From positions 1-24,719 of the IMG/VR virus record IMGVR_UViG_3300046006_003846: 24,719 nt of DNA; one strand, written 5' to 3'. The stretch is from a virus. Positions 329 through 23,882 of this stretch are shown here, piece by piece. Every line of letters starts with the position of its first letter. Position 1 is the stretch's first letter. Under the pieces are notes generated by a model. That model was not told where the DNA came from. It made no database searches and was given only the letters and a program-made list of their open reading frames with translations. Position numbers and translations under genes: made by a program.

Positions 329-2914
329 ATGTATCAAGCAATCCATTATGATTTCTCTACTTATACTTACCATCTTCGTGATGATAAGAGTGGTTGGCAC
401 GAATTTAAATTTCAACCCACTTATTATAAACGAGTAGATGAGCATGAGGAAGGAGCACAACCTGTATTAACAGGAGGGTGGGCTATACCTACTACAAAAT
501 ATAATAAAGATGACACTAACTTATTAGAAAAAGATATTAATAAAGAATTAGTTGTGTTACGAGAACTTTACTATAAGTATGATGACGTAATTCCTTCATT
601 TCATAATATTGTACATTTAGATATTGAAATAGAGATGGGAGGCGCTTTAACACCTGAATACATTAAAGCTGCTCCCATGCCTATTACTTCAATTGCTTTA
701 ATTGATATGACTACAAAAACAAAAATATGTTTTATTGTAGATAAAAGTAAAGAAATAGAAGAAACAAACCAAGATGGTAAACAAATTATTCCTTGTGGTT
801 CTGAAAAGGAACTAATTAAACGTTTTTTAGACAAATGGGAAGAATTAGATCCAACAATTGTAGTAGGATGGAATAGTGCTTATTTTGATATTCCTTACAT
901 ATATTTTAGAATTCAACAAATACTAGGTGATGAAGTATTACGTATGTCTCCTATACGAAAAGTAAATTACAGAGAATTTAATGGTGAAATACAAGTTAAT
1001 ATAGCTGGTGTTAACCATTTAGATTATATGTTACTTCATAAAAAGTATATTATGAAGGAAGAGCCATCATATAAATTAGGAGAAATAGGAACTAAATATG
1101 TTGGGTTGGGAAAGTTAGAATATGAAGGTAATCTAAATACATTATTTAAAAATGACAAAAATGCTTTTATAGATTATAACTTACGAGATGTTGAAATCAT
1201 TGAAAAACTAGAGGAAAAATTAAAATTTATCGAGCTAACAATTATGATCTCTCATATTTGTAATATACCTTATGAAAGTATTTATTATAATACAGTAATG
1301 AATGAAGGTGCTATTCTAAAGTATTTAAAACGAGAAGGTATTGTATCACCAAACAAACCGACTACCCATAATCCGTCTTTAAAAGCAAATACTGCATCGT
1401 ATGCTGGTGGTTATTTATTAGAACCAATTCCAGGTCTATATTTTGATGTAATTGATTTAGACTTTACCTCATTATACCCCTCAATTATGAAATCATTGAA
1501 TTTGGGTATTGAAACATTAGTAGGTAGAATTAAAGTAGATAGTAATCCAACATATGAACAACAACATTCATTAGAAAAACTTAAATTAAGAAATCCTGAT
1601 GAACAAGTAATTATTGAAAGATTAAACAAAAGTAATTATACTCTTAAATCAGCTCAAATAAAAATAGGAGATTTAATTAAATTAATAGAAAAAAACGAAT
1701 ACACTATATCAGCGTCAGGAGCTATATTTAGAACTGATGAAAAAAGTGTTGTAGCAACTATATTAGAAGGATGGTTTAATAAACGAGAGCACTATCGAGG
1801 ATTAAAGAAAAAAGCAGGTAAAGACGAAGATTGGGCTAATTATAAATTATATGACTTATTTCAACATGCATTTAAGATTTTACAGAATGCGATGTATGGT
1901 ACATTTGCAATTAGTGGATGGAGATATACTGATGGTCAATTAATTTGTAGTGCTGCTATTACTAATTCAGGACAAAGATTAACTTGTGAATCAATTGACT
2001 TTGTAAATAATAAAATAAATACTGAATTAGGAGTTGAAAAACAATATGTCTGCATTTCAGATACAGATTCAATGTATATTGTATTAGGAGATCTACTTAA
2101 ACATAGATACCCAGATCTTAAACCTGAAGAAAAAAATGATAAAACACTTAAATTAGCAATCGAAATACAAGACGAAGCAAATGCTGATTTAAATCGTATA
2201 AGTAAAAACTTATTTAATATAGCATTTAACACTCATTACTTTCAATTAAAACAAGAGGTAATTTGTTCTAGTGTATTAACTACAGGTAAACGAAGATATG
2301 CAATGTATGTTACTAATAAAGAAGGTGTTGCAGTAGAAGAACTAGACATGAAAGGACTTGAATTAATGAAGTCTAACATGAATAAGTTATTTAAGAAATT
2401 TGGAGAGGATTTTATCAAAAATATATTATTTGGTAAAGAAAAATCAGAAATAGATGATGATATAGTTACATTCTATAAAGCACTAAAAACATTAGACCCA
2501 AGACAATTAGGTAAACCAACAGGAGTAAAACAAATACATAACTACCATCTACCAGCTAAAGCAGGAGATATGTTTAGTGGTTTTAAAATAAAAGCACCAT
2601 ACAATACTAAAGCAGCTATTCGTTACAATGATTTACTTAAATTTAAAAAATTAGATAAAAAATTTGAATCTATAATTGAAGGAGATAAAATATTTGTAAT
2701 TAACTTAAAACAAAATCCCTACAATTTAGAAACAATTGGTTTACCAAACGCCCAAGTACCTCCAGCAATAGAAGAATTCGTTAAAACATATATTGATGTT
2801 GAGGAGATATTTGACTCGTTATTGGCCAATAAGTTAAAATCATTATATCTTGATCTAAAATGGGATTTTCCAGCACTTAACAAAAATGTTGGTAAATTTT
2901 TTAACTTTTCGTAA
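329..2914 (+). CDS. 43: DNA polymerase, family B, T4 gp43-like
   Basis: Replicative DNA polymerase with 3'-5' proofreading, 861 residues (T4 gp43 is 898). Exonuclease motifs are intact: Exo I HLDIE (D98, E100), Exo II GWNSAYFD (N182, D187), Exo III YNLRD (Y283, D287). Polymerase motifs follow in order: motif A DLDFTSLYPSI (D376/D378), motif B KILQNAMYG (K516 to G524), motif C SDTDS (D578, D580), and a KxY-type TGKRRYAMY near residue 655. The protein ends in an aromatic tail (VGKFFNF), reminiscent of the T4 polymerase C-terminal clamp-binding tail. It acts with the sliding clamp (4153) and clamp loader (7405, 8598). The ATG directly follows the upstream stop codon. All catalytic carboxylates are present, so it should be active. 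Confidence 0.97.
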   Translation: MYQAIHYDFSTYTYHLRDDKSGWHEFKFQPTYYKRVDEHEEGAQPVLTGGWAIPTTKYNKDDTNLLEKDINKELVVLRELYYKYDDVIPSFHNIVHLDIEIEMGGALTPEYIKAAPMPITSIALIDMTTKTKICFIVDKSKEIEETNQDGKQIIPCGSEKELIKRFLDKWEELDPTIVVGWNSAYFDIPYIYFRIQQILGDEVLRMSPIRKVNYREFNGEIQVNIAGVNHLDYMLLHKKYIMKEEPSYKLGEIGTKYVGLGKLEYEGNLNTLFKNDKNAFIDYNLRDVEIIEKLEEKLKFIELTIMISHICNIPYESIYYNTVMNEGAILKYLKREGIVSPNKPTTHNPSLKANTASYAGGYLLEPIPGLYFDVIDLDFTSLYPSIMKSLNLGIETLVGRIKVDSNPTYEQQHSLEKLKLRNPDEQVIIERLNKSNYTLKSAQIKIGDLIKLIEKNEYTISASGAIFRTDEKSVVATILEGWFNKREHYRGLKKKAGKDEDWANYKLYDLFQHAFKILQNAMYGTFAISGWRYTDGQLICSAAITNSGQRLTCESIDFVNNKINTELGVEKQYVCISDTDSMYIVLGDLLKHRYPDLKPEEKNDKTLKLAIEIQDEANADLNRISKNLFNIAFNTHYFQLKQEVICSSVLTTGKRRYAMYVTNKEGVAVEELDMKGLELMKSNMNKLFKKFGEDFIKNILFGKEKSEIDDDIVTFYKALKTLDPRQLGKPTGVKQIHNYHLPAKAGDMFSGFKIKAPYNTKAAIRYNDLLKFKKLDKKFESIIEGDKIFVINLKQNPYNLETIGLPNAQVPPAIEEFVKTYIDVEEIFDSLLANKLKSLYLDLKWDFPALNKNVGKFFNFS

Positions 2915-2939
2915 TATGTATAATAAATAATAAAATACC

Positions 2940-3254
2940 ATGAAAAAATCAGAATTACAGCAAATAATTAGAGAAGAAATACTAGAAGCAATGGCTGCTC
3001 CACCAACTCCCGCAGCAAAAACCGGATCAGTAGCAGGAGGTTCAATATCAACATTAACAGCTGCATTAAAAGGTATAGGCATCACAGACCCAAATATTAC
3101 TAATATTCTTGGAAAATTAAAAAATCTTAAATATACTCCATCAATGACTGAAAAACAAATTATAACGGATGTATTTAGAAAGATGATGACTACTAATGAT
3201 GATATAGCTTTATCTAAAGTTTTTAGCGCTTTAAAACAGATGGAAGCAAAATAA
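2940..3254 (+). CDS. Small protein with putative capsid-targeting N-terminus
   Basis: A 104-residue protein that I do not recognise as a family. The N-terminus is a charged amphipathic segment, MKKSELQQIIREEILEAMA. T4 internal head proteins carry similar short N-terminal capsid-targeting sequences, cut by the prohead protease after (I/L)-x-E. Here I14-L15-E16 followed by A17 fits that rule. Residues 18-30 are rich in Ala and Pro (a flexible linker), and the rest looks helical with no Cys and no membrane segment. The ATG follows an A-rich leader and sits 25 bases after the polymerase stop. The next gene starts directly at this gene's stop and has the same style of N-terminus, so the two may be co-packaged. 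That role is inference. Confidence 0.6.
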   Translation: MKKSELQQIIREEILEAMAAPPTPAAKTGSVAGGSISTLTAALKGIGITDPNITNILGKLKNLKYTPSMTEKQIITDVFRKMMTTNDDIALSKVFSALKQMEAK

Positions 3255-4103
3255 GTGATTAAATTAATTAATATATTAAAAGAAATATATCTTGATGAAG
3301 CCATTGTGCGTGTTCCTCAAGAAATACTTAATAAAAGTAAAGAAATTTTTAATTATATTAAATCTCATTTAGAAGATTTAAAAACTAAATCACCTAAAGA
3401 TTATAACCAACCGTATATTGATTCTAAATTTAAGGATTATTTTAAATTTAAAGATCTTAAAAATCAAGATTTAGTTATTAGCATAGGATTTTATAATGAT
3501 CCTAAAGATGCAGGTGCAGGAAGAATGGATACTACAGATGGTATTCTTTTAATTAATTTATCTTTATTTGATCCTAATAATTTAGAAGATTTTGAAGAGT
3601 TAATTGAACATGAATTAGTTCATGCTATGGACCCTAAAATTAAAGACATGAGTATATACAAAGGTATAGCTCATAAAGGAACAGAACCTGCTGGAAGTAA
3701 TTTTGCGCGTTCTCTAGATAAATCTGCCCTAGGAAATACTAAATCAGAATTTGAAAAAAATTATGAAAAATATTTAAAATCACCTTGGGAGTTTGATGCA
3801 TTTTCAGCACCACTAATTAATACTCTTAAATTTAATATAAATAAATTTCCAAATGATCCTGCCTATAGAAATTTACTAATTCAATTATTATCAGATATAA
3901 AAACTAAAAGCATTGAACAAATAGTTAATGATGATAAATATGAAAAATTACCTTGGTTCTTTAGTAAAAAAGAATGGGATACTAAAAATTGGAATGATGT
4001 TTTCAAAGCATACCAATCTGAATTATATAAAATGAAAACTTGGTCAACTAAACCAACTTTATATCAACGTTTTACAAAAAAATTAGGAACAGAATTAATT
4101 TAA
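3255..4103 (+). CDS. Putative HExxH zinc metalloprotease with capsid-targeting-like N-terminus
   Basis: A 282-residue protein starting at GTG directly after the previous stop. A zincin motif HELVHAMD gives H119, E120, H123 and D126. A later 'SPWEFDAFSA' segment puts E179 where a third zinc ligand could lie. This arrangement occurs in small phage metallopeptidase-like proteins. The first 16 residues (MIKLINILKEIYLDEA) resemble a T4-type capsid-targeting sequence, with L13-D14-E15 followed by A16 as the predicted prohead-protease cut site. Together these suggest an internal head protein that could be injected and cleave a host protein; a structural or maturation role is the alternative. No signal peptide or membrane helix is seen. 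A strong terminator overlaps the stop codon. The metal motif is seen directly; substrate and delivery are inference. Confidence 0.65.
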   Translation: MIKLINILKEIYLDEAIVRVPQEILNKSKEIFNYIKSHLEDLKTKSPKDYNQPYIDSKFKDYFKFKDLKNQDLVISIGFYNDPKDAGAGRMDTTDGILLINLSLFDPNNLEDFEELIEHELVHAMDPKIKDMSIYKGIAHKGTEPAGSNFARSLDKSALGNTKSEFEKNYEKYLKSPWEFDAFSAPLINTLKFNINKFPNDPAYRNLLIQLLSDIKTKSIEQIVNDDKYEKLPWFFSKKEWDTKNWNDVFKAYQSELYKMKTWSTKPTLYQRFTKKLGTELI

Positions 4104-4152: not shown

Positions 4153-4893
4153 ATGATACCTAAATTTGAATTACAAGCAGTTATAAATAAATATTACCTA
4201 AACGGAATGAATGAAGCCGTTAAATGGGATATTAAAGATAAAAACTTAAACATTAAGTTTACTTCACCAACAAAAGAAATGATTGGAGAAGTAACACATA
4301 CTGATTTTACCTTACCTGATGCAAACATTGGTATAAGTAATACTTCTCAATTATTAAAATTAATTAGTATAGCAAATGGAGATGTATTGTTGAGTTTTGT
4401 TAGGAATGGTAAATCATTTTCTAAACTAATTATCTCAGACAATCAATTTACCGCTAATTATACTTTAGCTGATATGTTAACAATTAATAAATCAGGTGCT
4501 TATAAAGGATCTGAAGATTATAATTTAACTACATCACTAGATAAGGATATTATATTAGCAATGATAAAAGCAAAATCAGCATTAGATGAAAGTCCTACTG
4601 TGATGTTAAAACCATCTACAAATATGGATGGTGAATTTGAGTTAGAGTTAGTGTTTGGAGGCGATATAGAATACTCAAACAAAGTATCTTATTACTTAGC
4701 TAACTTTGTTAAAAACAATGTATCACATGATTTTACATTAGGATTCAACTCAGATTTACTTAAAGAGATATTAGTAGTTAATAAAGATTCTGATGAAGCA
4801 AAATTGTCTATTAATTTAGAAGGATTGATGAAATTAGAATTTAAATCAGGTAACATAAAAAGTATTTATTACATAGTTCAAAAAGATATATAA
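4153..4893 (+). CDS. 45: DNA polymerase sliding clamp, T4 gp45-like
   Basis: A 246-residue processivity clamp (T4 gp45 is 228) that trimerises around DNA and tethers the polymerase. Supporting features are the overall pattern of a viral PCNA-like protein: an N-terminal helix (KFELQAVINKYYLNGMNEAV), alternating strands, an 'SNTSQLLKLISIANGDV' segment typical of the clamp helix, and a C-terminal strand 'FKSGNIKSIYYIVQKD'. The position between polymerase and clamp-loader genes supports the call, since clamps diverge strongly in sequence. It has its own predicted promoter just after a terminator. The following 76-residue gene overlaps its stop by one base. In T4 the clamp also activates late transcription; nothing here shows whether that applies. 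Confidence 0.88.
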   Translation: MIPKFELQAVINKYYLNGMNEAVKWDIKDKNLNIKFTSPTKEMIGEVTHTDFTLPDANIGISNTSQLLKLISIANGDVLLSFVRNGKSFSKLIISDNQFTANYTLADMLTINKSGAYKGSEDYNLTTSLDKDIILAMIKAKSALDESPTVMLKPSTNMDGEFELELVFGGDIEYSNKVSYYLANFVKNNVSHDFTLGFNSDLLKEILVVNKDSDEAKLSINLEGLMKLEFKSGNIKSIYYIVQKDI

Positions 4894-9244: not shown

Positions 9245-9592
9245 ATGGCAAAAGAAGAAATGTCTGTTATTGAACAGCTAGAAAAAGAATATCCTACTAT
9301 CGCTCAAGGATACAAACAAATAATGAAAGAACAATATACATTGTTTGCACGTAAGCACATAGACTATGGAATGTCAAATATCGCTGCTGGTACTCAATTA
9401 GTAAACGATGAAGAAAAAGACTTTGCATTAACTGGACTTTGGTATCGCTTATCAGATAAAGTAAATAGATGGAAAAATCTTATCATTACTAAACAAACTG
9501 CTAAAAATGAAGCATTAACTGATACTTATCAAGATATTACTAACTATGGCATTATTGCTCAGTTAGTAGAAAGAGGTCTTTGGAAAAAATAG
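9245..9592 (+). CDS. Nmad1 (DUF1599) family protein
   Basis: A 115-residue protein matching the nucleotide-modification-associated domain 1 pattern: 'ARKHIDYGMSN' (K-x-x-DYG), 'LWYRLSDKVNRWKNLI' and 'NEALTDTYQDITNYGII' ending 'RGLWKK'. The D/E/N/R positions resemble those of all-alpha NTP pyrophosphohydrolases. The family occurs in phages and Bacteroidota and has been proposed, from gene neighbourhoods, to work on modified nucleotides. Activity has not been shown from this sequence. Here it follows the clamp-loader genes and precedes a nuclease, which fits nucleotide-pool or base-modification work. It starts at ATG, 9 bases after the previous stop. Confidence 0.85.
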   Translation: MAKEEMSVIEQLEKEYPTIAQGYKQIMKEQYTLFARKHIDYGMSNIAAGTQLVNDEEKDFALTGLWYRLSDKVNRWKNLIITKQTAKNEALTDTYQDITNYGIIAQLVERGLWKK

Positions 9593-9593
9593 T

Positions 9594-10547
9594 ATGGCTA
9601 AAAGTAAAATTCCATCTACAATAAAACAAATCCAAAACTACAAACCGCAGGAAATAAACTACGCATTTCAAAAAACTATTTCCTATTCTCAAATGTCAAT
9701 GTATTTGCAATGCCCTAAAAAATGGGCATTACAATACAGAGATGGACATAAAGTACCTAGTTTTTCTATCAACATGACTTTTGGAACCGCAATACACGAA
9801 ACATTACAAAATTATTTATCTGTAATGTATAGTGAATCAGGAGCAGCTGCTGATAAAATTAATCTATGGGAATATTTTGAAGACTGTTTTAGTGCTACAT
9901 ATTTAAATGGATACAAATCAAACAATAATATCCATTTTACCAACCCAAATGAAATGAGAGAATTTTTTGATGATGGAGTAGCTATATTGGATTTCATTAA
10001 AAAAAGACGAGGCGAATATTTTAGTATTAAAGGATGGCATTTAGTAGGAATCGAGATCCCCATCGTTATAGCGCCAAATAAAACACATAACAACGTTTTA
10101 TTCAACGGCTTCATTGACTTAGTAATGTATCATGAAGGAACAAATAAATTCGTTATCTACGATATAAAAACAAGTACTCGTGGGTGGGGAGATAAAGAAA
10201 AGAAAGACGAAATTAAACAATTCCAAATACTACTTTATAAATCATTTTTTAGTGAACAATTTGGAGTTCCTGAAGAAAACATCGATGTTGAATTCTTTAT
10301 TGTAAAGCGTAAAATATGGGAAGAAAGTGAATTTCCTCAAAAACGTGTACAGATATTTGCTCCTGCAAATGGTAAAACAAAAGTAAAAAAATCAAAAGCA
10401 GCATTAGATACATTTATTGATGAAGCATTTAATTTAGATGGTTCATACAAATTCACAGACCACCAACCACAACCTAGTAAATCTAATTGCATGTATTGTC
10501 CATATAAAGATAAAAAAGAGTTATGCAACAAATCAACTCTTATATAA
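9594..10547 (+). CDS. PD-(D/E)XK nuclease, RecB/Cas4-like, with probable Fe-S cluster
   Basis: A 317-residue nuclease of the RecB/AddB/Cas4 type. Motifs in order: 'SYSQMSMYLQCPKKW' (C40), 'FGTAIHE' (H68), 'GFIDLVM' (D175), 'YDIKTS' (D190, K192) and 'QFQILLY' (Q209, Y215). The C-terminus holds CxxCx8C (C299, C302, C311), which with C40 gives the four cysteines expected of a 4Fe-4S cluster, as in AddB and Cas4. It probably resects or processes DNA ends during replication or recombination. No helicase domain is fused and no cas1/cas2 is nearby, so a CRISPR role is unlikely. It starts one base after the previous stop. Confidence 0.9.
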   Translation: MAKSKIPSTIKQIQNYKPQEINYAFQKTISYSQMSMYLQCPKKWALQYRDGHKVPSFSINMTFGTAIHETLQNYLSVMYSESGAAADKINLWEYFEDCFSATYLNGYKSNNNIHFTNPNEMREFFDDGVAILDFIKKRRGEYFSIKGWHLVGIEIPIVIAPNKTHNNVLFNGFIDLVMYHEGTNKFVIYDIKTSTRGWGDKEKKDEIKQFQILLYKSFFSEQFGVPEENIDVEFFIVKRKIWEESEFPQKRVQIFAPANGKTKVKKSKAALDTFIDEAFNLDGSYKFTDHQPQPSKSNCMYCPYKDKKELCNKSTLI

Positions 10548-10769: not shown

Positions 10770-12221
10770 ATGAAAGACAGTTTTGATTATTTACCTCAGA
10801 GCAAGAGGAAAAAAATACTTCTTATATGCGACGATATTCGAGCATTTAGTGGAGTAGCAACAGTAGCTAAAGAAATAGTATTAGGCACAGCACATCATTT
10901 CAATTGGATTAATATAGCAGGAGCTATACAACACCCAGATAAAGGAAAAAGATTTGATGTATCTGCTGAAACAAATAAAGTAGCAGGAATAGATGATTCA
11001 TCAGTAATGATTTATCCAACTGATGGATATGGTGATACAACTTTTATTCGTCAATTAATTGCTATGGAAAAACCAGATGCTATATTTTTAATTACAGATC
11101 CTAGGTATTTTACTTGGTTATTTAATATTGAAAATGAAATTAGGAAAAAAATGCCTATTATTTATTTAAATATTTGGGATAGTCCATTTCCTTATCCATT
11201 ATGGAATAAAGTATTTTATGAATCGTGTGATGTTTTATTGTCAATCTCTAAACAAACCAAAAACATAAATGAAGTTGTTTTAGGTGATAAAGCAAAAAAC
11301 AAAATCATTAAATATATTCCTCATGGTTTAAATGAAGAAACATATTTCCCTATTACTCCTGAATACGCTAAGTATAAAGAATATAAAGAGTTTAAAAAAC
11401 AAGTATTAGGTGATAAAGAATATAGTTTTGTTTTATTTTTTAATTCAAGAAATATTCGCCGTAAACAAATACCAGACACACTATTAGCATTTAGAATGTT
11501 TTTAGATGGTTTACCTAAAGAAGAAGCAGATAAATGTGCTATATTACTTCACACTGAAATAGTAAGTGAACATGGAACTGATTTAAATGCTGTAAAAGAA
11601 TATTTGTTTGAAAATTATCCAAACAACGTTATATTCCACCAACAAGGAGTAGGAGCAGAACAAATGAATTGGTTATACAATATGTCTGATGCTCAAATAT
11701 TGATTACAGATAATGAGGGTTGGGGATTAAGTTTAACTGAAGCAATGTTAGCTGGTAAACCAATTATAGCTAATTGTCAAGGTGGAATGCAAGACCAAAT
11801 GCGTTTTGAAGATGAAAAAGGTAATTGGATTGATTTTAATGTAGATTTTCCTTCAAACCATAGAGGTACATTTAAAAAACATGGTGATTGGGCATTCCCA
11901 GTTTACCCAGCAAGTATATCGATTCAAGGATCTCCTCAAACACCTTATATATCAGCAGATAGAGTTGCTCCGGAAGATGTAGTTGCTCAAATAGAAAAAG
12001 TGTATTATTTATCTCCAGACATGAGAAAACAACTTGGTTTAGAAGGTAGAGAATGGGCTATAAGTGATGAAGCAGGATTTACAAGCAAACATCAAGCTAG
12101 AAGAGTAATAAATGCTTTAGATGATTTATTTTCAACTTGGAAACCAAGAGAAAAATATGAACTTATAAATGCTACAACTCATAAATTAGATGTATCTCGT
12201 AACCATAAATTAACTTATTAA
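10770..12221 (+). CDS. Glycosyltransferase, GT4-like (GT-B fold)
   Basis: A 483-residue retaining-type glycosyltransferase. The N-terminal Rossmann part is 'KKILLICDDIRAFSGVATVA' with the Gly-rich loop that faces the acceptor. A mid-protein 'NSRNIRRKQ' (about 227-235) corresponds to the linker strand with basic residues that contact the nucleotide-sugar phosphate. The C-terminal donor motif is 'EGWGLSLTEAMLAGKPII', an E-x7-E pair (E316, E324). The protein is longer than most GT4 enzymes (around 370-400) because of an insertion before the last helices. No signal peptide or membrane helix is seen, so it should be cytoplasmic. It begins the glycan island. Donor and acceptor cannot be told from sequence. 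Confidence 0.88.
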   Translation: MKDSFDYLPQSKRKKILLICDDIRAFSGVATVAKEIVLGTAHHFNWINIAGAIQHPDKGKRFDVSAETNKVAGIDDSSVMIYPTDGYGDTTFIRQLIAMEKPDAIFLITDPRYFTWLFNIENEIRKKMPIIYLNIWDSPFPYPLWNKVFYESCDVLLSISKQTKNINEVVLGDKAKNKIIKYIPHGLNEETYFPITPEYAKYKEYKEFKKQVLGDKEYSFVLFFNSRNIRRKQIPDTLLAFRMFLDGLPKEEADKCAILLHTEIVSEHGTDLNAVKEYLFENYPNNVIFHQQGVGAEQMNWLYNMSDAQILITDNEGWGLSLTEAMLAGKPIIANCQGGMQDQMRFEDEKGNWIDFNVDFPSNHRGTFKKHGDWAFPVYPASISIQGSPQTPYISADRVAPEDVVAQIEKVYYLSPDMRKQLGLEGREWAISDEAGFTSKHQARRVINALDDLFSTWKPREKYELINATTHKLDVSRNHKLTY

Positions 12222-12231
12222 AATAAAATCT

Positions 12232-13536
12232 ATGAATAAACCACTTTTTATAATTAGCTGCCCCATAGATACCTACTCAGGGTATGGAGCTCGCTCTCGT
12301 GACTTAGTTAAATCCATCATTGAATTAAAAAAAGATGAATGGAATATACAAATAATGCCTCAACGTTGGGGTGATTGTAGTTGGGGATTTATTAATGATA
12401 ACCCTGAATGGGGATTTTTATCACAATATTTTTTACCTCAACCACAATTAACTCAACAACCAGATATTTGGGCTCAAATAACTGTACCTAATGAATTTCA
12501 ACCAATAGGAAAATACAATATTGGTATTACAGCAGGTATTGAAACAACAATTTGTCCTCCTGAATGGCTTGAAGGAGTAAATAGAATGAATATTACTTGG
12601 GTATCATCAAAACACTCTAAAAAAGTATTTGAAGATACTAAGTTTGAAAAGAAAGATCAACAAGGTAGAGTAATAGGATTAGTTCAATTGGAAAAACCAA
12701 TGGAGGTTATTTTTGAAGGAGCTGATTTAGATAAATATAAAATACTTGATCCTAAAGAATTAACTAGTATTGATTTAAGTCCAATTAAAGAATCATTTGC
12801 TTATTTATTTGTAGGACATTGGATTAACTTAAATTCACCACTTGGTGAAGATAGAAAAAATGTTGGACTATTAATTAAAGCATTCTTTGAAACATTCAAA
12901 AACAAATTAAATAAACCAGCATTAATATTAAAAACATCTGGAGCTGTTAGTTCATACATGGATAGAGATGCTATATTAAGAAATATAGACGTTATTAAAA
13001 AAACAATAAATAGTAAAGATTTACCAAATGTTTATTTATTACATGGTGAATTTACAGATACTGAAATAAATGAGCTATATAATAACCCAAAAGTAAAAGC
13101 AATGGTTTCATTAACTAAAGGTGAAGGTTTTGGTCGTCCATTACTTGAGTTTAGTTTAGTTAAAAAACCAATTATTACTACAAATTGGAGTGGTCACACA
13201 GATTTCTTACATTACAAAAATAATGTTTTATTAAATGGTGAATTAAAACCAGTACACCCAGCAGTAGCAAATCAATTCCTACTTAAAGAAAGTTCTTGGT
13301 TTAATGTTAATCCACCTGAGGTAGGTGAAGCATTAATGAATGTATTTAAAAACTATGATGATTATTTACCAGGTGCTCGTAAGCAAGGTGAATACAATAA
13401 GGAAAAACATTGTTTTAATGCTATGAAAGAAGTTGTAAATGAACAATTAAGTAAAGTACCTGATTTTCCTAAACAAGTACAATTAAAATTACCTCAACTT
13501 AAAAAAATTGAATTACCAAAATTAACTAAAATATAA
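12232..13536 (+). CDS. Glycosyltransferase, GT4-like (GT-B fold)
   Basis: A 434-residue glycosyltransferase. The N-terminus 'ISCPIDTYSGYGARSRDLV' carries the Gly-rich acceptor-side loop, and 'GIETTICPPEWLEGVNRM' plus 'WVSSKHSKKVFE' are typical of this phage/bacterial GT4 branch. The donor-site motif is 'EGFGRPLLEFSLVKKPII' with E298 and E306. A Lys/Pro/Leu-rich tail (last ~25 residues, 'QVQLKLPQLKKIELPKL') is probably an unstructured or repeat-like extension. It follows the first GT4 gene by 10 bases, so the two may act in sequence on one glycan. Donor sugar unknown. Confidence 0.87.
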   Translation: MNKPLFIISCPIDTYSGYGARSRDLVKSIIELKKDEWNIQIMPQRWGDCSWGFINDNPEWGFLSQYFLPQPQLTQQPDIWAQITVPNEFQPIGKYNIGITAGIETTICPPEWLEGVNRMNITWVSSKHSKKVFEDTKFEKKDQQGRVIGLVQLEKPMEVIFEGADLDKYKILDPKELTSIDLSPIKESFAYLFVGHWINLNSPLGEDRKNVGLLIKAFFETFKNKLNKPALILKTSGAVSSYMDRDAILRNIDVIKKTINSKDLPNVYLLHGEFTDTEINELYNNPKVKAMVSLTKGEGFGRPLLEFSLVKKPIITTNWSGHTDFLHYKNNVLLNGELKPVHPAVANQFLLKESSWFNVNPPEVGEALMNVFKNYDDYLPGARKQGEYNKEKHCFNAMKEVVNEQLSKVPDFPKQVQLKLPQLKKIELPKLTKI

Positions 13537-13537
13537 A

Positions 13538-13996
13538 ATGAACGATAACTTAATAACATGCAAGCACTGTGGATCAGATGCTTGCTATGTAACCGAAAAC
13601 TCAGACATCATCAAAACTTATAGCTGCTTCGGATGTGGATATACCAGCAATTCTTTAATGAAAGAAGGTGAAGAATTCTATGCTCAACAATTAGAAGTCC
13701 TACCTGAAATCTATAAAGACGTAATGTTTAAAGACGAGGATGGTTTAATGTGGATGCCTACTACAATCAATTTACCTCAACAAGGTATGGTGTTTTACAA
13801 TGGCACAAATAAAGAAAATGCTAAATGGGCCGCTGTAAAAGCAGTTGAAGTACTAGAAGCAGAAAAAGAAAAATACCCAATTAAAGGCAAACCAGGAGAA
13901 TTCTATGAATGGAGAATGGATATGTCTACTATAAAGCCTTTTGAAATGAAAGAATTTATGGAAGCTTTATCTTACATTGGGGTTTTACCAGAATAA
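13538..13996 (+). CDS. Zinc-ribbon protein of unknown function
   Basis: A 152-residue protein whose first 35 residues form a zinc ribbon: CKHC (C8, C11) and CFGC (C30, C33), with an extra C16. The remainder has a 'GLMWMPTTINLPQQGMVFYNG' segment and a C-terminal helix; I do not recognise it. Similar small zinc-ribbon proteins sit beside glycosyltransferase genes in phages, so a scaffold or regulatory role in the island is possible. It starts one base after the previous stop and ends 16 bases before the next gene, with a predicted promoter across its end. Confidence 0.75.
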   Translation: MNDNLITCKHCGSDACYVTENSDIIKTYSCFGCGYTSNSLMKEGEEFYAQQLEVLPEIYKDVMFKDEDGLMWMPTTINLPQQGMVFYNGTNKENAKWAAVKAVEVLEAEKEKYPIKGKPGEFYEWRMDMSTIKPFEMKEFMEALSYIGVLPE

Positions 13997-14008
13997 TTCT
14001 TATATTTA
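13977..14008 (+). promoter_or_regulatory. Bacteroidota-type promoter, predicted leaderless start
   Basis: TTG at 13977-13979, a 21-base spacer, then TATATTTA at 14001-14008. Only four bases (GGTT) separate the box from the ATG at 14013, so transcription should begin at or next to the start codon. The 15-base stretch TATATTTAGGTTATG is identical at 16385-16399. Confidence 0.5.
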
Positions 14009-14012
14009 GGTT

Positions 14013-14642
14013 ATGAAAATTAGTTATGCAATTACAGTATGTAATGAACTTAAGGAAATACAACGTTTACTTGATTTTTTATTATCTGAAAAAAAAGAAC
14101 ATGATGAAATCATTGTGTTAATGGATACAACTAAAGCTACTGATGAATTAGTATCAACACTACGTCATTATGAGATGCATAATATGGATCATATGACAGT
14201 ATGGGCAGATAAGTTTGAAGGACACTTTGCTGATTGGAAAAACAAATTAGCTTCTTATTGTTCAGGTAATTATATTTTCCAAATTGATGCTGATGAATTA
14301 CCTCACACTGACTTAGTAAAAATTTTACCATTAATGTTAGAACAAAATTCAGAAGTAGATTTATTTTTTGTTCCTAGAATAAACACAGTAGAAGGACTTA
14401 CTCAAGAACATATTATTAAATGGAGATGGAATGTGGATGAAAAAGGTTGGGTTAATTTTCCTGACTATCAAACACGAATCTATAAAAAATCTCCTGAAAT
14501 AAAATGGGAAGGTAAAGTACATGAAAGAATAACTGGTACTAAAACATTTTCCCCATTACCAGCTGAAGAGGTTTGGTGCTTGTATCATCCTAAAAATATA
14601 GAAAAACAAGAAAAACAAAATAATTACTATGAAACAATATAA
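14013..14642 (+). CDS. Glycosyltransferase, GT2-like (GT-A fold), short
   Basis: A 209-residue GT-A glycosyltransferase. 'ISYAITVCNELKEIQRLL' is the nucleotide-binding start of GT2, and 'FQIDADELP' gives the metal-binding DxD (D92, D94). The later 'DYQTRIYKKSPEIKWEGKVH' segment is typical of this short bacterial/phage branch. There is no membrane helix, unlike processive GT2 enzymes. Its end overlaps the next gene by 14 bases. The start at 14013 directly follows a promoter-like box. Donor and acceptor unknown. Confidence 0.87.
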   Translation: MKISYAITVCNELKEIQRLLDFLLSEKKEHDEIIVLMDTTKATDELVSTLRHYEMHNMDHMTVWADKFEGHFADWKNKLASYCSGNYIFQIDADELPHTDLVKILPLMLEQNSEVDLFFVPRINTVEGLTQEHIIKWRWNVDEKGWVNFPDYQTRIYKKSPEIKWEGKVHERITGTKTFSPLPAEEVWCLYHPKNIEKQEKQNNYYETI

Positions 14643-15519
14643 AAAAATCTTTATAGCTGGAGCTAACGGGATGCTAGGTACTACTTTACAAAGTATTGTT
14701 GATACTAAAGATTTCCTACTCACAGATAAAGAAACATCAGAAAATATTAGTTGGTGTGATATTAGAGACCTACAATACACAACTAATCTAATTAAAGAAT
14801 ACCAACCAGACATAATTCTAAATTTTGCAGCATTAGTAGATTTAGAATATTGTGAAAAAAACCAAGACGATTGTTATTCAACAAATACAGTTGCTGCTAT
14901 TCATTTATTCAATCTAGCTAAAGATTTAAACATTCCATATGTGTTTATAAGTACAGCAGGTATATTTGGTAATGATAAAGAATTTTATACAGAAGAAGAT
15001 CAACCATATCCACTAAGTGCTTATGGTAAAAGTAAATATTTTACTGAACAACTTTTACTAAACCAAAACTACTCTAAATACTGGATATTCAGAGCAGGAT
15101 GGATGATGGGTGGTGGTCCTGAAAAAGATAAAAAATTTGTTAATAAAATTATGAAACAAGTTAAATCAGGAGCTAAAGAATTATTTGTTGTAGATGATAA
15201 ATTAGGAGTACCTACTTATACTAAAGATTTTGCTAGTTCAATTTTGAAACACATAGAAGAAGAATTACCTTATGGATTGTATAATATGGTGAGTCAAGGT
15301 GAAGCTAGCAGATATGAAACAGCAATTGCTATTAATGAATATCTTAATTTAGGATTAACAATACATAAAGTAGATAGTACTCACTTCAACACAGAATATT
15401 TTGCCCCACGCCCATACTCAGAAAAATTAATAAATAAAGCATTAAATGATTTAGGAAGAAATTATATGAGAAACTGGAAAGTATGTTTACATGAATATTT
15501 AGATAAATACTTTAAATAA
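14629..15519 (+). CDS. RmlD-like NAD(P)-dependent sugar reductase/epimerase (extended SDR)
   Basis: A 296-residue extended short-chain dehydrogenase. The cofactor motif is 'FIAGANGMLG' (GxxGxxG, residues 11-17). 'NFAALVDLEYCE' matches RmlD-type active-site surroundings, 'FISTAGIFG' holds the catalytic S/T (S108, T109), and 'SAYGKSK' gives Y132-xxx-K136. RmlD reduces dTDP-4-dehydrorhamnose to dTDP-rhamnose; this protein could do that or a related nucleotide-sugar reduction. No RmlA, RmlB or RmlC gene is present in the window, so a host-derived precursor may be used. It overlaps the upstream GT2 gene (14 bases) and the next gene (one base). Confidence 0.85.
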   Translation: MKQYKKIFIAGANGMLGTTLQSIVDTKDFLLTDKETSENISWCDIRDLQYTTNLIKEYQPDIILNFAALVDLEYCEKNQDDCYSTNTVAAIHLFNLAKDLNIPYVFISTAGIFGNDKEFYTEEDQPYPLSAYGKSKYFTEQLLLNQNYSKYWIFRAGWMMGGGPEKDKKFVNKIMKQVKSGAKELFVVDDKLGVPTYTKDFASSILKHIEEELPYGLYNMVSQGEASRYETAIAINEYLNLGLTIHKVDSTHFNTEYFAPRPYSEKLINKALNDLGRNYMRNWKVCLHEYLDKYFK

Positions 15520-16379
15520 TGAATAAAATCCCTGTAGCTCGCCTTTGGCACAAAAAAGGTAAATTGGAATATTATACTATGTTTCAATTACATAAATTTT
15601 TTCCTGGAATTGAGTTTGAATTTCATATTATATTAGACCAACCAGATTATAAAGATGAATGGTCTAAAAAAATAGATGAACTACCTTATAAATGTTTTTG
15701 GTACTCTAAAGAAGATATGAGTAGCTATTTAAAAAATAGTGAATATGGAAACGAAGAATTAATTTCTAAAATTCCTAATTTTATTCATTTTTATCATATT
15801 TTAATTAACCATTATTTAAGAAGAGTATTTTCTTATGATTATGTTTTAAATATAGAATACGATGTTTTATTTAATAGTGATGATTTAACTCAATTAAAAG
15901 AATTCTTAACAACCAAAACACCTTTTAGTATAGTTGAACCTGCAAATTCAGGATGCGATAAAGCATTAGCTAAATCATTGTCTGATTTATTTCAACAAAA
16001 TATAGTCAAATACCAGAATATAGGAATAAATGCTGGGTTTCAAGGGATTGATTTAAAAATATTTGATGAATTCTTAAACCCAACAACATTCAATATGTTG
16101 ATAAATTGTTTTGATTTTTCAGGAATATACAATGAAGATGGGACTGAAAAAACAGGGTGGACAAGAACAATTCTAGACACTCAAGAACAATCATTTCATT
16201 CATTAATGAATGCTATTAGTCCTAATCATCAATTATTAAACCCAAGTGAATACTATGTTTTCCCATACTGGGTAGATATGGAACACCTTAAAAAATCTAA
16301 AGTTATTCATTTTATAGGTCATGAAAAACCAAAAGAAATGTTTGATATGATTGATAAAAATTTGGAAATCTTAAATTAA
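15519..16379 (+). CDS. Putative glycosyltransferase, GT8-like (GT-A fold)
   Basis: A 286-residue protein. 'YVLNIEYDVLFNSDD' places E113 and D115 where GT-A enzymes have their DxD metal site. 'NIGINAGFQGIDLKIFDEF' recalls the 'NaGvmliNl' motif of GT8, and 'VIHFIGHEKP' recalls its 'iHf.g..KPW' ending. These three landmarks appear in the right order but identity is modest, so the family call is tentative. It overlaps the preceding stop by one base (TAATG). It is probably cytoplasmic. An alternative is a GT-A protein of an unassigned phage family. Confidence 0.6.
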   Translation: MNKIPVARLWHKKGKLEYYTMFQLHKFFPGIEFEFHIILDQPDYKDEWSKKIDELPYKCFWYSKEDMSSYLKNSEYGNEELISKIPNFIHFYHILINHYLRRVFSYDYVLNIEYDVLFNSDDLTQLKEFLTTKTPFSIVEPANSGCDKALAKSLSDLFQQNIVKYQNIGINAGFQGIDLKIFDEFLNPTTFNMLINCFDFSGIYNEDGTEKTGWTRTILDTQEQSFHSLMNAISPNHQLLNPSEYYVFPYWVDMEHLKKSKVIHFIGHEKPKEMFDMIDKNLEILN

Positions 16380-16392
16380 ATTTATATATTTA
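16361..16392 (+). promoter_or_regulatory. Bacteroidota-type promoter, predicted leaderless start
   Basis: TTTG at 16361-16364, a 20-base spacer, then TATATTTA at 16385-16392. The box ends four bases before the ATG at 16397, as at 14001, so a leaderless or nearly leaderless mRNA is predicted. The -33 element lies within the end of the upstream coding sequence. Confidence 0.55.
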
Positions 16393-16396
16393 GGTT

Positions 16397-16921
16397 ATGA
16401 AAAAATTACATTTAGGTTGTGGAACAAAACATCTTGACGGTTACACTAATATTGATATTAGATACCTTCCAGGTGTAGATGAAGTAAATAACATTCGTTT
16501 TTTACGAAACTATAAAGAAAACTCAGTAGATGAAATTTATGCTTGCCATGTTTTAGAACATTTTGGTAGGTGGGAATATAAAGAAGTACTTAAACGTTGG
16601 TTTGAAATTCTAAAACCAGGAGGACAATTACGTTTAGCAATACCTAATTTTAGTTCTATTTGTTCGTATTATACCAAAACAGGTGATTTAAAATCACTAA
16701 TTGGTCTTCTTTATGGTGGTCAAGATTATGATGAAAATTATCATTACATTACTTTTGATTATCATACTTTATCTAACGATTTAAGAAACATAGGTTATAC
16801 TTCTATCTTAGAATGGAACACAGAAGACTATCCAGGAGATGATTATAGTAAATCATATTTACCTCACATGGATAAAGAAAATGGAATACTAATGAGTTTA
16901 AATATATTAGCAGTAAAGTAA
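16397..16921 (+). CDS. SAM-dependent methyltransferase, class I
   Basis: A 174-residue class I methyltransferase. Motif I is 'LHLGCGTKHLDGYTNIDI' (G7-C-G9, acidic D20 at the end of strand 2). 'DEIYACHVLEHF' (about 45-56) is the post-II region, and 'ILKPGGQLRLAIPNF' is the strand 5 motif. This 'hLGCG..h..gy.NiD' type is common in polysaccharide gene clusters, where members may methylate sugars or fatty acyl groups. It begins a run of tightly linked genes and overlaps the next start by one base. Substrate unknown. Confidence 0.87.
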   Translation: MKKLHLGCGTKHLDGYTNIDIRYLPGVDEVNNIRFLRNYKENSVDEIYACHVLEHFGRWEYKEVLKRWFEILKPGGQLRLAIPNFSSICSYYTKTGDLKSLIGLLYGGQDYDENYHYITFDYHTLSNDLRNIGYTSILEWNTEDYPGDDYSKSYLPHMDKENGILMSLNILAVK

Positions 16922-17733
16922 TGAAACTATTTATAGATTTTAACGATGAAAAACGGTTTATACCTAAATTAAAAGATATAGAACACATAGATTTTTCATT
17001 ATTTTTAGATTGTTCTCCTAAAAACAAAGAAGAATTATCTTCAATTAATATATTAGTTCTTGTAGAACCAAATGAATATTTTGGTTTACATGATTGGGCT
17101 ATCCAAAATAAAAATTTATTTTCTTTTATATTAACATATAATGATAAAGTATTAAATAATTGTGAAAATGCAGTATATTTACCTTTTGGATTTACATTTT
17201 TAAAAGAAGAACACTACCAAAAAGAACATAATAAAGAATTTAAATTATCTCATTTATGTGGAATTTTAAATAAATCCTACGGACATTCAATGCGTCATGA
17301 AATTCTAGCTAGAGAAAATGAATTTAAAATCTCTACTAACTTTTATAAAACAATAGGAGATAGACATAATCTAGAAACTGTAGGTAATGATAAAGAAACA
17401 GTATTTGGAAATTCTCAATATGGAGTAGTAATTGAAAATTTTTCTCATAGAGGATATTTTTCAGAAAAATTAATAGATTGTTTTTTACTTAAAACTATTC
17501 CTATATATTGGGGTTGTTCAAACATATACAATTATTTTTATGAACCTGGATTTTTTAAATTTGAGAATGTAGATGATCTAATTTATATTTCAAATATATT
17601 AACCCCAGAAATGTATGAATTAAGAAAAGATGCTATAGAACATAATTATCAATTAGCTCTTAATTACACAAATAATGAACAACGTGTAGTTGATAAAATA
17701 AAAGAAATATTTAATCTAAATAATTTAATATGA
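16921..17733 (+). CDS. GT10-like (alpha-1,3-fucosyltransferase-type) glycosyltransferase
   Basis: A 270-residue protein whose C-terminal half has the GT10 donor-binding signature: 'VVIENFSHRGYFSEKLIDCF' followed by 'KTIPIYWGCSNI' (E172, N173, S181-E-K183, P194, W197-G198). This corresponds to 'ENs...Y.TEKl' and 'vPiyWG' of fucosyltransferases. The N-terminal acceptor-side half is divergent and short. GT10 enzymes transfer L-fucose (or related 6-deoxysugars) from GDP-fucose. The donor here is uncertain because no GDP-fucose synthesis gene is in the window. Exostosin-type GT47 shares the 'EK..d' theme and is the main alternative. Overlaps neighbours by one and four bases. Confidence 0.72.
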   Translation: MKLFIDFNDEKRFIPKLKDIEHIDFSLFLDCSPKNKEELSSINILVLVEPNEYFGLHDWAIQNKNLFSFILTYNDKVLNNCENAVYLPFGFTFLKEEHYQKEHNKEFKLSHLCGILNKSYGHSMRHEILARENEFKISTNFYKTIGDRHNLETVGNDKETVFGNSQYGVVIENFSHRGYFSEKLIDCFLLKTIPIYWGCSNIYNYFYEPGFFKFENVDDLIYISNILTPEMYELRKDAIEHNYQLALNYTNNEQRVVDKIKEIFNLNNLI

Positions 17734-18380
17734 AAAATGTATACGATATAACTAATGAGTTTGAAAGACGTTTAGCTGAATACACAGGAGCTCCTTATGT
17801 AGTAACTGTAGATAATCAAAGTAATGCTTTGTTTTTAGCTTTATATTATGAACATTATGTAAATAAAAGTATAAAAACAGATTCAATCACTATCCCAAAC
17901 AGAACTTACCCTTCAGTACCATGTGAAATTATTCATGCTGGTTTGAAAGTTAAATTTAGACAAGTTGAAGGAAGAACAATTAAAGGCTCTTATCAATTAG
18001 AAGGATCTAATGTTTGGGACTCTGCTTTATCATTTACAACAGATATGTACAAACCAAACCAACATATGTGTATTAGTTTTACAGGCCCATACAAACATTT
18101 TAAATTAAGTAAAGGTGGAGCTATATTAACAGATAATTATGATGCTAATTTATGGTTTAAAAGAGCAAGATATTCAGGAAGAAGAGAATGTTCTTATCAT
18201 GATGATAATTTAGATATGCTAGGATGGAATTTTTATATGATGCCTGAATTAGCAGCACGTGGGTTATTATTAATAGGACAGTTTTATAATGGAGAAGGAA
18301 AACCAAAACATAATGCTGATTTAGAATTACCATACCCAGATTTGTCACAATTTCCAATTTATACAAAAAACCATGAATAA
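17730..18380 (+). CDS. Shortened DegT/DnrJ/EryC1/StrS-type PLP enzyme
   Basis: A 216-residue protein covering only the large PLP domain of the family; normal members are about 360-400 residues. 'VDNQSNALFLALYY' matches the phosphate-binding 'sGTaAL..AL' region, 'TIPNRTYPSVPCEIIHAGLK' the following conserved block, and 'VWDSAL' supplies the pyridine-nitrogen Asp (D97). 'SFTGPYKHFKLSKGGAILTD' contains the likely Schiff-base Lys K122. The C-terminal small domain is missing, and the sequence ends soon after 'MMPELAARG'. Full-length relatives transaminate 3-keto or 4-keto nucleotide sugars; this form may need a partner or have another reaction. No frameshift is seen: the next gene starts 8 bases before its stop with a different fold. 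Confidence 0.78.
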   Translation: MKNVYDITNEFERRLAEYTGAPYVVTVDNQSNALFLALYYEHYVNKSIKTDSITIPNRTYPSVPCEIIHAGLKVKFRQVEGRTIKGSYQLEGSNVWDSALSFTTDMYKPNQHMCISFTGPYKHFKLSKGGAILTDNYDANLWFKRARYSGRRECSYHDDNLDMLGWNFYMMPELAARGLLLIGQFYNGEGKPKHNADLELPYPDLSQFPIYTKNHE

Positions 18381-19293
18381 AGAATTTGATATTAATTTTG
18401 TAATATTTTCTCCATTTCCTGACTATGTTAGTTATATTGGAGGAGCCATTGTTCCTCATATTTTAGCTAATCAATTATCATTATTAGGAGAAAATGTTTA
18501 TTTATATGCTAATTCAACAAATCCAAAATATAACGTAACTTGTATACCTTGGAAAACAGATATAGAGTTTGATCCTAAAAACACAATAGTAATAATTATT
18601 GCTGGAGATGGAGAACACACATTTGAACATAATATTCCTGAGTGTTTAAAAAATGCTCCTAATATAGTTAGGTGGTTAGTAAATAATCAATCAAGAATGT
18701 ATCCTGAAGATAATAAACTTTATACTTACCACAAGTATTGGAGAGTATTAGATAATCAAAAAATAGATGGAGAGCTTTCTGTTATTGAATCAAATCATCA
18801 TTTATTTTATGATCGTGGATTAAAAAGAAAAGGAACTTGCTATTTAATGAAAGGAAATTTAAATATAAATGAAGAACCTGAAAGAGTAATTCATAAACCT
18901 GAAGATTTATGCATAGATTCAATACTATATAATATCCCGGATTCTGAAAAAATGAAATTCTATTCAGAATTATTTAATCAAATGGAATATTTTATTAGTT
19001 ATACCCCATTTACTCATACCTCAGTACTAGCAGCAATGTGTGGATGTAAATCTATAGTTATTCCTAAATCTGAATATGAAGGAATAAAATTTAGTAAGGA
19101 AAAATGGTTAAATGAAATATGGTGCTCTAAATATGGTATAGCAGTTGGATTAGATGATTTACCTAGAGCTATATCTACTATGGGTCAAGTTATACCTAAT
19201 ATAAAACACTATGAAGAAGTTACTCAACCCACTCAAGCAAAAAAGTTTATTGAAGATTGTTATGTTTGGTTAAAAGAAAAATATAATTTATAA
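18373..19293 (+). CDS. Putative GT-B-type glycosyltransferase
   Basis: A 306-residue protein. The N-terminal strand 'FDINFVIFSPFPDYVSYIGG' with 'GGAIVPHILANQLSLLGENV' is like the acceptor-side Rossmann fold of GT-B enzymes. 'MEYFISYTPFTHTSVLAAMC' with 'GCKSIVIP' is like the donor-side motif in which S/T and the backbone hold the nucleotide sugar. No exact GT4 E-x7-E pair is present, so I cannot assign a CAZy family. It overlaps the upstream gene by 8 bases and is followed one base later by the ATP-grasp gene. Probably cytoplasmic; donor and acceptor unknown. Confidence 0.65.
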   Translation: MNKEFDINFVIFSPFPDYVSYIGGAIVPHILANQLSLLGENVYLYANSTNPKYNVTCIPWKTDIEFDPKNTIVIIIAGDGEHTFEHNIPECLKNAPNIVRWLVNNQSRMYPEDNKLYTYHKYWRVLDNQKIDGELSVIESNHHLFYDRGLKRKGTCYLMKGNLNINEEPERVIHKPEDLCIDSILYNIPDSEKMKFYSELFNQMEYFISYTPFTHTSVLAAMCGCKSIVIPKSEYEGIKFSKEKWLNEIWCSKYGIAVGLDDLPRAISTMGQVIPNIKHYEEVTQPTQAKKFIEDCYVWLKEKYNL

Positions 19294-19294
19294 A

Positions 19295-20524
19295 ATGAAA
19301 AAACTATTAATCCTAGGGGCTAACCCAGAAACTATACGTCTTATTAATACAGCTAAATCTATGGGAATTTATACTATAGTTACTGACCATGACCCTAATG
19401 CTCCCGCAAAAAAAGTTGCAGATAAAGGAATCAATATAAATGGAATGGATGTAGATGGTTTAGTAAAATTTTGTTTAGAGGAAAAAGTAGATGGAGTATT
19501 AGTTGGTATAGCAGATAGATTGATTCAACCATATCAACAGGTTTGTGAAAAACTTAATCTTCCTTGTTATGGAAATCAAATGTCCTGTGATTATCTTACT
19601 AATAAAGGAAAATTTAATGAAATACTACCTAAATATAATTTATCAGGTATTCCTTCAACTAGATTATATAAAGCCCATTATCCGCTTTTTCCTTGGACAA
19701 AATTAACATTCCCTATTTTTATAAAACCTATAGACAAAAACTCAGGACAAGGAATGAGTGTGGCTTATAACCATGATGAATTAAATGTAGGAATATCTAA
19801 AGCTTTTAATTCAACAAACAGTGAATATATCTTACTAGAAGAATACATGGACTGTAATGATACAATGTTGAATTTTACCATTATTGAAGGAAAAGTATCT
19901 TTATCAGCAATGACAGACAGATATACTTGTAAATTACAAAAAGACGCAAGTAAAGTATGTTTAGGAGCTAAATATCAATCTAAATTTGCTCAATTATTTA
20001 TGGATACTGACTATAAAAATATGTGTGATTTATTAAAAGAATTAGAAGTAAAAAACGCTATATTTACTATATCTGCATTTGTAAAAGATAATAAATTTTA
20101 TTACTACGACCCAGGATTTAGATTACAAGGTGAAGCCCCCGATCTCCATATACACAATGTAACTGGTTTTGATCAAAAGAAATTTTTAATTAACTATGCA
20201 TTAGGTATTAAAGATACACAAACCAATAATCCATTTAATAAATTTAATGCTACAATTTGGATATTAGTTAAATCTGGAACTATAAATAAGATTGATATAT
20301 TCAAAGAAGATCCATCTATATTTTATGTATCTCAAAGATTCAATGTTGGTGATATAATTACAGATGAAATGTTAGGAACTGAACGTCAAGTAGCAGCTAG
20401 AATATACCTAACATGTAACACAGAAGAAGAACTTAAAAATAAAATTGAAGAAATTCAATTTAAAACAACAATATTAGATACTAATAACAATAATCAAATA
20501 TTAGATAAATTTATTTATGAATAA
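19295..20524 (+). CDS. ATP-grasp enzyme, carbamoyl-phosphate-synthase-like
   Basis: A 409-residue ATP-grasp protein. The pre-ATP-grasp Rossmann domain is 'KLLILGANPETIRLINTAKS' (with 'TIVTDHDPNAPA'). The ATP-binding part has 'FPIFIKPIDKNSGQGMSVA' (about 139-157), the adenine-site 'YILLEEYMD' (about 180-188) and a late 'YYYDPGFRLQGEAP' region, where such enzymes bind metal and phosphate. ATP-grasp enzymes ligate a carboxylate to an amine, thiol or other nucleophile through an acylphosphate. In surface-glycan clusters they can attach amino acids or acyl groups to sugars, but the substrates here are unknown. Neighbours are a GT-B gene (one-base gap) and an SDR gene (8-base overlap). Confidence 0.85.
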   Translation: MKKLLILGANPETIRLINTAKSMGIYTIVTDHDPNAPAKKVADKGININGMDVDGLVKFCLEEKVDGVLVGIADRLIQPYQQVCEKLNLPCYGNQMSCDYLTNKGKFNEILPKYNLSGIPSTRLYKAHYPLFPWTKLTFPIFIKPIDKNSGQGMSVAYNHDELNVGISKAFNSTNSEYILLEEYMDCNDTMLNFTIIEGKVSLSAMTDRYTCKLQKDASKVCLGAKYQSKFAQLFMDTDYKNMCDLLKELEVKNAIFTISAFVKDNKFYYYDPGFRLQGEAPDLHIHNVTGFDQKKFLINYALGIKDTQTNNPFNKFNATIWILVKSGTINKIDIFKEDPSIFYVSQRFNVGDIITDEMLGTERQVAARIYLTCNTEEELKNKIEEIQFKTTILDTNNNNQILDKFIYE

Positions 20525-21251: not shown

Positions 21252-21268
21252 TAAAAAATAAAATAGTT

Positions 21269-22468: not shown

Positions 22469-22469
22469 T

Positions 22470-23288: not shown

Positions 23289-23293
23289 AATAT

Positions 23294-23875: not shown

Positions 23876-23882
23876 TTAACAC

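Follow-up and report, generated by a model that had tools for sequence, protein, structure and literature searches.

The stretch of DNA discussed here (the window) is an entire 24.7-kb virus record belonging to a T4-related phage with a B-family DNA polymerase, clamp-loader genes and GroES/GroEL. Immediately after its DNA polymerase gene (329-2914) lie two adjacent plus-strand reading frames, the neighbours singled out in a preliminary description of this sequence: the first encodes a 104-aa protein with a tag-like N-terminus and a poorly conserved body (2940..3254, reading MKKSELQQIIREEILEA...), and the second, opening with GTG, a 282-aa putative zincin metallopeptidase (3255..4103, reading MIKLINILKEIYLDEA...), which is followed by an unannotated 246-aa ORF (4153-4893). 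Both frames can be taken as real because their homologues keep the same order in the related records G007, L153 and G006/G005, and a minus-strand ORF overlapping the pair (2855-3304) was dismissed as spurious since it is the plus-strand frames that homologues back. The pair, with the 104-aa partner in the same place each time, is flanked by DNA polymerase and GroES/GroEL in three records, the window, G007 and L153 (of which the window and G007 show the polymerase), and in G006/G005 it occupies another genomic location; the sibling contig G003 carries a protease copy identical to that of the window. Elsewhere in the window, positions 10770-24620 hold a long cluster of genes for glycosyltransferases, methyltransferases and sugar modification that is largely different in G003 beside an identical core, and this cluster is a variable surface or DNA modification island.

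The larger protein carries the motif HELVHAMD (3609..3632, plus strand), which contains a catalytic HExxH (H119-H123), and further downstream SPWEFDAF (3780..3803, plus strand), in which E179 (3789-3791) is the candidate third zinc ligand. HELVHAMD and E179 had been picked out in the preliminary description, and the key residues are conserved: HExxH and SPWEFD, and with them H119, E120, H123 and E179, are invariant in five of five homologues. In a predicted model of moderate quality the HExxH helix (residues 110-125) follows a small sheet and E179 opens a further helix (177-197), and the layout described for zincins is likewise a HExxH helix and a second, Glu-bearing helix after a small beta sheet (PMC5512222). 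The best structural neighbours of the model core were HtpX (Z 4.5 over 71 residues, rmsd 2.7), selecase (4.2), jannalysin (3.7) and IrrE (3.3), and nearly all of the top neighbours were zincins, at weak scores throughout (Z at most 4.5, Foldseek E at least 0.6). These neighbours, minigluzincins, M48/HtpX and IrrE, align over only about 60 to 77 residues, and no sequence homology was found. Pfam families gave nothing above the cut-off (PF18894 PhageMetallopep reached 14.4 bits against a threshold of 23.7), a PDB sequence search with the protease profile returned chance matches only, tblastn against cultured phages gave no match, and no sequence match was detected to the described polyvalent-protein metallopeptidase families. 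Because no family model passed, the 282-aa protein is best described as a putative zincin of an undescribed family. It shares with the zincin domains of polyvalent proteins (PMC5512222) the two helices after a small sheet, a phage origin and probable packaging, but it is a single-domain protein, with no second domain recognised in its 282 residues, and it bears an N-terminal tag of the cleavable type.

It is these N-termini that make the pair of interest. The 104-aa protein begins with MKKSELQQIIREE; its tag A, MKKSELQQIIREEILE, occupies 2940..2987 (plus strand) and offers candidate cuts after IRE12 (2967-2975) or ILE16, giving a propeptide of 12-16 residues; the metallopeptidase begins with tag B, MIKLINILKEIYLDE (3255..3299, plus strand), which is 10-15 residues long, has the form MIKLxxILKE...LDE|A and offers candidate cuts after LKE10 (3284) and LDE15 (3299). 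The preliminary description had seen in both an amphipathic segment of the kind that directs T4 internal proteins into the prohead, ending in a prohead-protease site. The amphipathic character is not supported, since the hydrophobic moments do not exceed those obtained after shuffling (P = 0.16 to 0.71), and the two proposed sites fared differently. In the metallopeptidase, L13-D14-E15/A16 is present as described and E15, with L/I at P3, is invariant in five of five homologues; E10 is replaced by K in one of the five, which makes E15 the better candidate cut. In the partner, the residues I14-L15-E16/A17 are indeed there in the window, but ILE16/A17 is absent from the two close homologues (G007, E 5e-6; L153, E 5e-7), in both of which it is instead the IxE at residues 10-12 that is kept, and since neither has a terminal L-x-E, cleavage there would need IxE12. 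The partner family also changes its tag: tag A is found in the window, G007 and L153, and a different one, tag C, in the G006/G021 branch, although the bodies are related (L153 against G021, E 3e-13). In the protease model, residues 1-18 have pLDDT below 50 and the chain is well ordered directly afterwards.

The tags are modular well beyond this pair. In G003, seven consecutive small ORFs start with MKKSELKQIIKEEIxKVLxE and then continue into unrelated bodies, and on related contigs in IMG/VR some 90 proteins carry a tag identical or near-identical to that of the window, again ahead of unrelated bodies. The exact DNA pattern for MKKSELKQIIKEE matched 51 stretches of IMG/VR, and in 257 Gb of prokaryote genomes it was found on a single contig, itself phage-like. 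Across the whole set of 41 contigs and 1713 proteins, with three tag types and 103 body families, one of these tags stands on 146 of the 1713 real N-termini (A 92, B 46, C 8; picking the contigs by their tag A biases the count for that tag but not the one for tag B), compared with 24 of 34,260 shuffled N-termini, 24 of 3,698 internal Met starts and one of 234 ORFs on control contigs. Taking one protein per body family (103), the consensus is MKKSELxQIIKEEIxKxLxE, with unconserved sequence afterwards. Among 76 non-redundant bodies selected on the upstream core only, the last tag positions are L in 55 and E in 51 (KL 1.97 and 1.83 bits), whereas the residue that follows has 0.47 bit and those beyond it 0.10-0.34; in other words, the conservation of tag A stops right after L-x-E, the cleavage motif of T4 gp21. 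Shorter tags, such as those of G021, finish in ILAE or ILTE, and some tag-A proteins have no terminal L-x-E. Given that (I/L)xE occurs within residues 8-25 in 27% of the untagged proteins on these contigs, and (I/L)xE-A in only 2%, the short motif alone is weak evidence, and it is the entire tag that, by these sequence counts, exceeds chance. The bare tag, searched by tblastn against cultured phages, gave no match, and profile A4 was found in none of six phage records. The N-termini of TerL (DLKQIIREEYIKC...) are also tag-A-like; they are terminase sequence and were left out of the tag set.

That T-even phages sort variable internal proteins by a common N-terminal signal is established (PMC9026906, PMC12373910), with gp21 cutting after L/I-x-E and, in IPIII, residues 4 and 7 mainly directing targeting and residues 8 and 10 processing (PMC9026906). 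The T4 sequences themselves read MKTYQEFIAE|A at the start of IPII and IPIII, and the 19-residue tag of IPI ends in ITE|A. Tag B, collected as M[IV][KRS]L on letters 1-4 only, has I/L at position 7 in 34, L/I at position 8 in 32 and E at position 10 in 27 of 41 non-redundant proteins, and the window protease, with L4, I7, L8 and E10, agrees with IPIII in tag length and at each of the four positions that matter for function. As with T4-type capsid targeting sequences, then, non-homologous proteins of one phage begin with a common propeptide some 10 to 19 residues long, and the T4-style capsid targeting put forward in the preliminary description is strongly supported at the sequence level by the same tags standing on many non-homologous proteins, by their gp21-motif ends and by the register of tag B. 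Like IPI, IPII and IPIII, the proteins described here have short N-terminal tags (10 or 19 residues in T4) with an L/I-x-E end, common to unrelated bodies, variable between phages and carried by accessory genes (PMC9026906, PMC12373910); unlike them, they use other tag sequences, are far more numerous and include enzymes.

What the tags are attached to is equally telling. An ADP-ribosyltransferase (ART) of the DarT/Tpt1-like type is found behind tag A in one contig (G031) and behind tag B in four (G010, G017, G026 and G036). Its own sequence starts KQVGxLYHFT, separated from the (I/L)xE by one small residue, and in six members neither the P1 Glu nor KQVG varies. It matches PF15633 Tox-ART-HYD1 (best E 1.3e-6), and its model matches Tpt1 (2.9e-6) and DarT (6.7e-4). 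Tags are exchangeable between homologous cargo. The comparison with T4 Alt, an injected ADP-ribosyltransferase, comes readily to mind, but the ART cargo here is small and from another ART branch, and the window pair is a putative zincin with a partner. Further tagged proteins include a zeta-toxin-type kinase, a 5'-nucleotidase, a leucine-rich repeat protein and a weaker acetyltransferase match, and against PADLOC there was one SduA-like match (5.8e-6) and three weaker ones between 4e-4 and 1e-3; most tagged cargo falls into no known family. One contig, G021, has 17 tagged genes on 60 kb, and it is within a cluster of tag-B genes there that the protease and partner are located. Separately, four tagged or tag-like proteins (G013:64554-65060, G030:25178-25684, G031:8556-9089 and G012:89315-89851) are 5'-deoxyribonucleotidase-like and are possibly injected nucleotidases.

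A gp21-like prohead protease, which the scheme in the preliminary description calls for, is present in relatives of the window: G006 and G005 encode a PF03420 (S77) protease (E 8e-31 and 7e-31) whose match to T4 gp21 (PDB 5jbl, 8e-17) lies around the SRG serine and the GEL region. There it is followed by a tag-C partner and then by the metallopeptidase homologue, and in G006 these are followed in turn by scaffold-like and gp23 genes. No S77 gene was recognised on the window fragment, and none was found on its identical siblings G001-G003, all of which are fragments. Overall, S77 was found on 12 of 34 tagged records, and wherever a tagged contig has a substantial gp23 match, G006 counted, it has S77 as well (9/9); a tenth gp23-bearing tagged contig, G034, has only a 64-residue gp23 fragment. 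Together with the position beside the protease homologue, this supports capsid targeting, even though the frequency of S77 on tagged contigs is not significantly above that on random-pattern contigs (12/34 versus 4/18) and tagged genes do not cluster around it (9 within four genes, p = 0.59). A conserved head-module gene in G009 bears tag A. Among named phages, ART homologues in the S77 phages Mel-JY01, Slickus01, Slicko01, Vibrio 6E35.1a, SCTP-2 and LR756508 have tags ending in (I/L)xE, one of the two ART tags of Mel-JY01 ending in VTE instead, whereas the ART homologues of Lu11 and Dickeya JA11 lack (I/L)xE, no S77 gene was detected in these two phages and no S78 protease was found in either.

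Putting these observations together, I consider it probable that both window proteins are internal head proteins of the T4 type, that is, tagged, cut by an S77 protease and injected, with the protease cleaving a host protein. I infer packaging, cleavage, injection and a host target from what the sequences show, namely modular tags that end in the gp21 motif, an S77 gene in relatives and the active-site residues of a zincin, and the strength of these steps differs: that both proteins are packaged seems likely, and that the protease has a host target is plausible, a call that could go either way. As capsid targeting sequences, the tags would attach both proteins to the core of the prohead, where a gp21-like S77 protease would remove them after (I/L)-x-E. 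In the metallopeptidase the cut would fall after E15, in the partner probably after E12 or E16; the freed zincin and its partner would then stay with the DNA and be injected at infection, and the protease would most likely cut a host protein early, for example one belonging to a defence system. Cutting of a host protein is preferred because T4 Ip1 to Ip3 counter host restriction (PMC12373910) and because the related cargo includes ARTs.

The most serious competitor, which I regard as possible but on the whole doubtful, accepts packaging and has the metallopeptidase act inside the prohead or virion, with the head core, other cargo or its own partner as substrate. The gene order in G006 and G005, directly behind the gp21-like protease and partner and in G006 ahead of the gp22 scaffold and gp23, and the proposal that zincin peptidases of phage polyvalent proteins process packaged polypeptides (PMC5512222) are what keep head-internal processing in play, and the protease does retain its neighbouring partner in the window, G007, L153 and G006. 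However, the pair is not tied to the head module, because it is placed elsewhere in the window, G007 and L153 (the polymerase-GroES/GroEL site) and in G021 (the tag-B cluster), the protease homologue is missing from most tagged contigs that bear head genes, and its tag resembles that of effector-like cargo such as the ARTs. It is a good deal less probable that the tags are uncleaved docking helices for some other hub (replication machinery, membrane or scaffold) with no delivery into the next cell: tagged genes do lie genome-wide with no particular proximity to S77, and some tag-A proteins do lack the terminal L-x-E, but conservation ends exactly at the S77 motif, the ART retains (I/L)xE directly ahead of its domain whichever of several tags it bears and, within the named records, does so only in S77 phages, and tag B fits a tested T4 register. 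Finally, small genes whose bodies evolve fast could simply have been duplicated recently, which would account for the likeness and leave the N-terminus without a sorting role, and to this the seven tandem genes of G003 and the many cargo proteins of no known family would lend themselves; this seems very improbable, given bodies from families as unrelated as ART, zeta-type kinase, 5'-nucleotidase, leucine-rich repeat and putative zincin, and given homologous bodies found behind non-homologous tags.

There is also a wider reading, one I would neither press nor dismiss: S77 phages in general may use lineage-specific N-terminal address codes of about 10 or about 20 residues, ending in (I/L)xE, to load an arsenal that is injected with the DNA. 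Some uncultured relatives would on this wider reading load more than 12 proteins per genome, among them ADP-ribosyltransferases, kinases and a zinc protease with its partner, and the injected proteins would be an anti-host arsenal legible directly from sequence. The giant phages SPN3US and phiKZ offer a parallel, since their gp21-related protease (S80) cuts head cargo after Glu, whereupon it is ejected (PMC5694885), but they use A-x-E or S/A-x-E and mostly long propeptides rather than (I/L)-x-E and 10 to 20 residues. In the open literature searched, no paper was found that joins capsid targeting sequences with metagenomic phages, and as far as that literature shows, the novelty lies in the tag families of these uncultured phages, in how many genes bear tags, in homologous cargo having swapped tags and in a putative zincin protease and its partner being among the cargo. 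Targets are known for few injected phage proteins; in T4 these are Alt and, against GmrSD, Ip1 to Ip3. With a recognisable tag, asking which proteins a phage sends into the cell along with its DNA becomes a matter of searching sequences, and a phage's injected arsenal may come to be read from its genome. An injected zinc protease with a partner would be a testable new kind of anti-host weapon, the dozens of unnamed small tagged proteins are candidate anti-defence factors, and the tags themselves are ready-made targeting peptides for loading phage heads with proteins.

Several smaller observations were made along the way. In the Alishewanella phage Slickus01 (L154:1531-8133) and in L190, about nine consecutive genes start with MKIDxLYESLLEE or similar; the Slickus01 run includes several ART-like paralogues, S77 is present, and this phage offers a cultivable system for testing tag-directed packaging. 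In the Pseudomonas phage Lu11 (L156:3995-8387), where Pfam finds neither an S77 nor an S78 protease, five nearby genes, two of them ART-like, begin with MKIQLAVA ahead of differing bodies, a possible tag of another specificity. The 484-kb phage LR756508 (L191:1416-6263) holds 20-residue and 10-residue tags in one cluster. Its S77 match, and likewise that of G038, is split in two inside a single frame (576 aa and 582 aa, respectively), which suggests an insert such as an intein. Similarly, the gp23 match of G013, G022 and G040 falls into two parts within one open frame, with the insertion between profile positions about 80-91 and 115-120. In-frame TGA codons occur within S77 and/or gp23 matches in G015 (S77 9335-9766, gp23 18109-19461) and G034 (gp23 fragment 24649-24840), which derive from one metagenome, and the pattern suggests TGA recoding in these tag-carrying phages.
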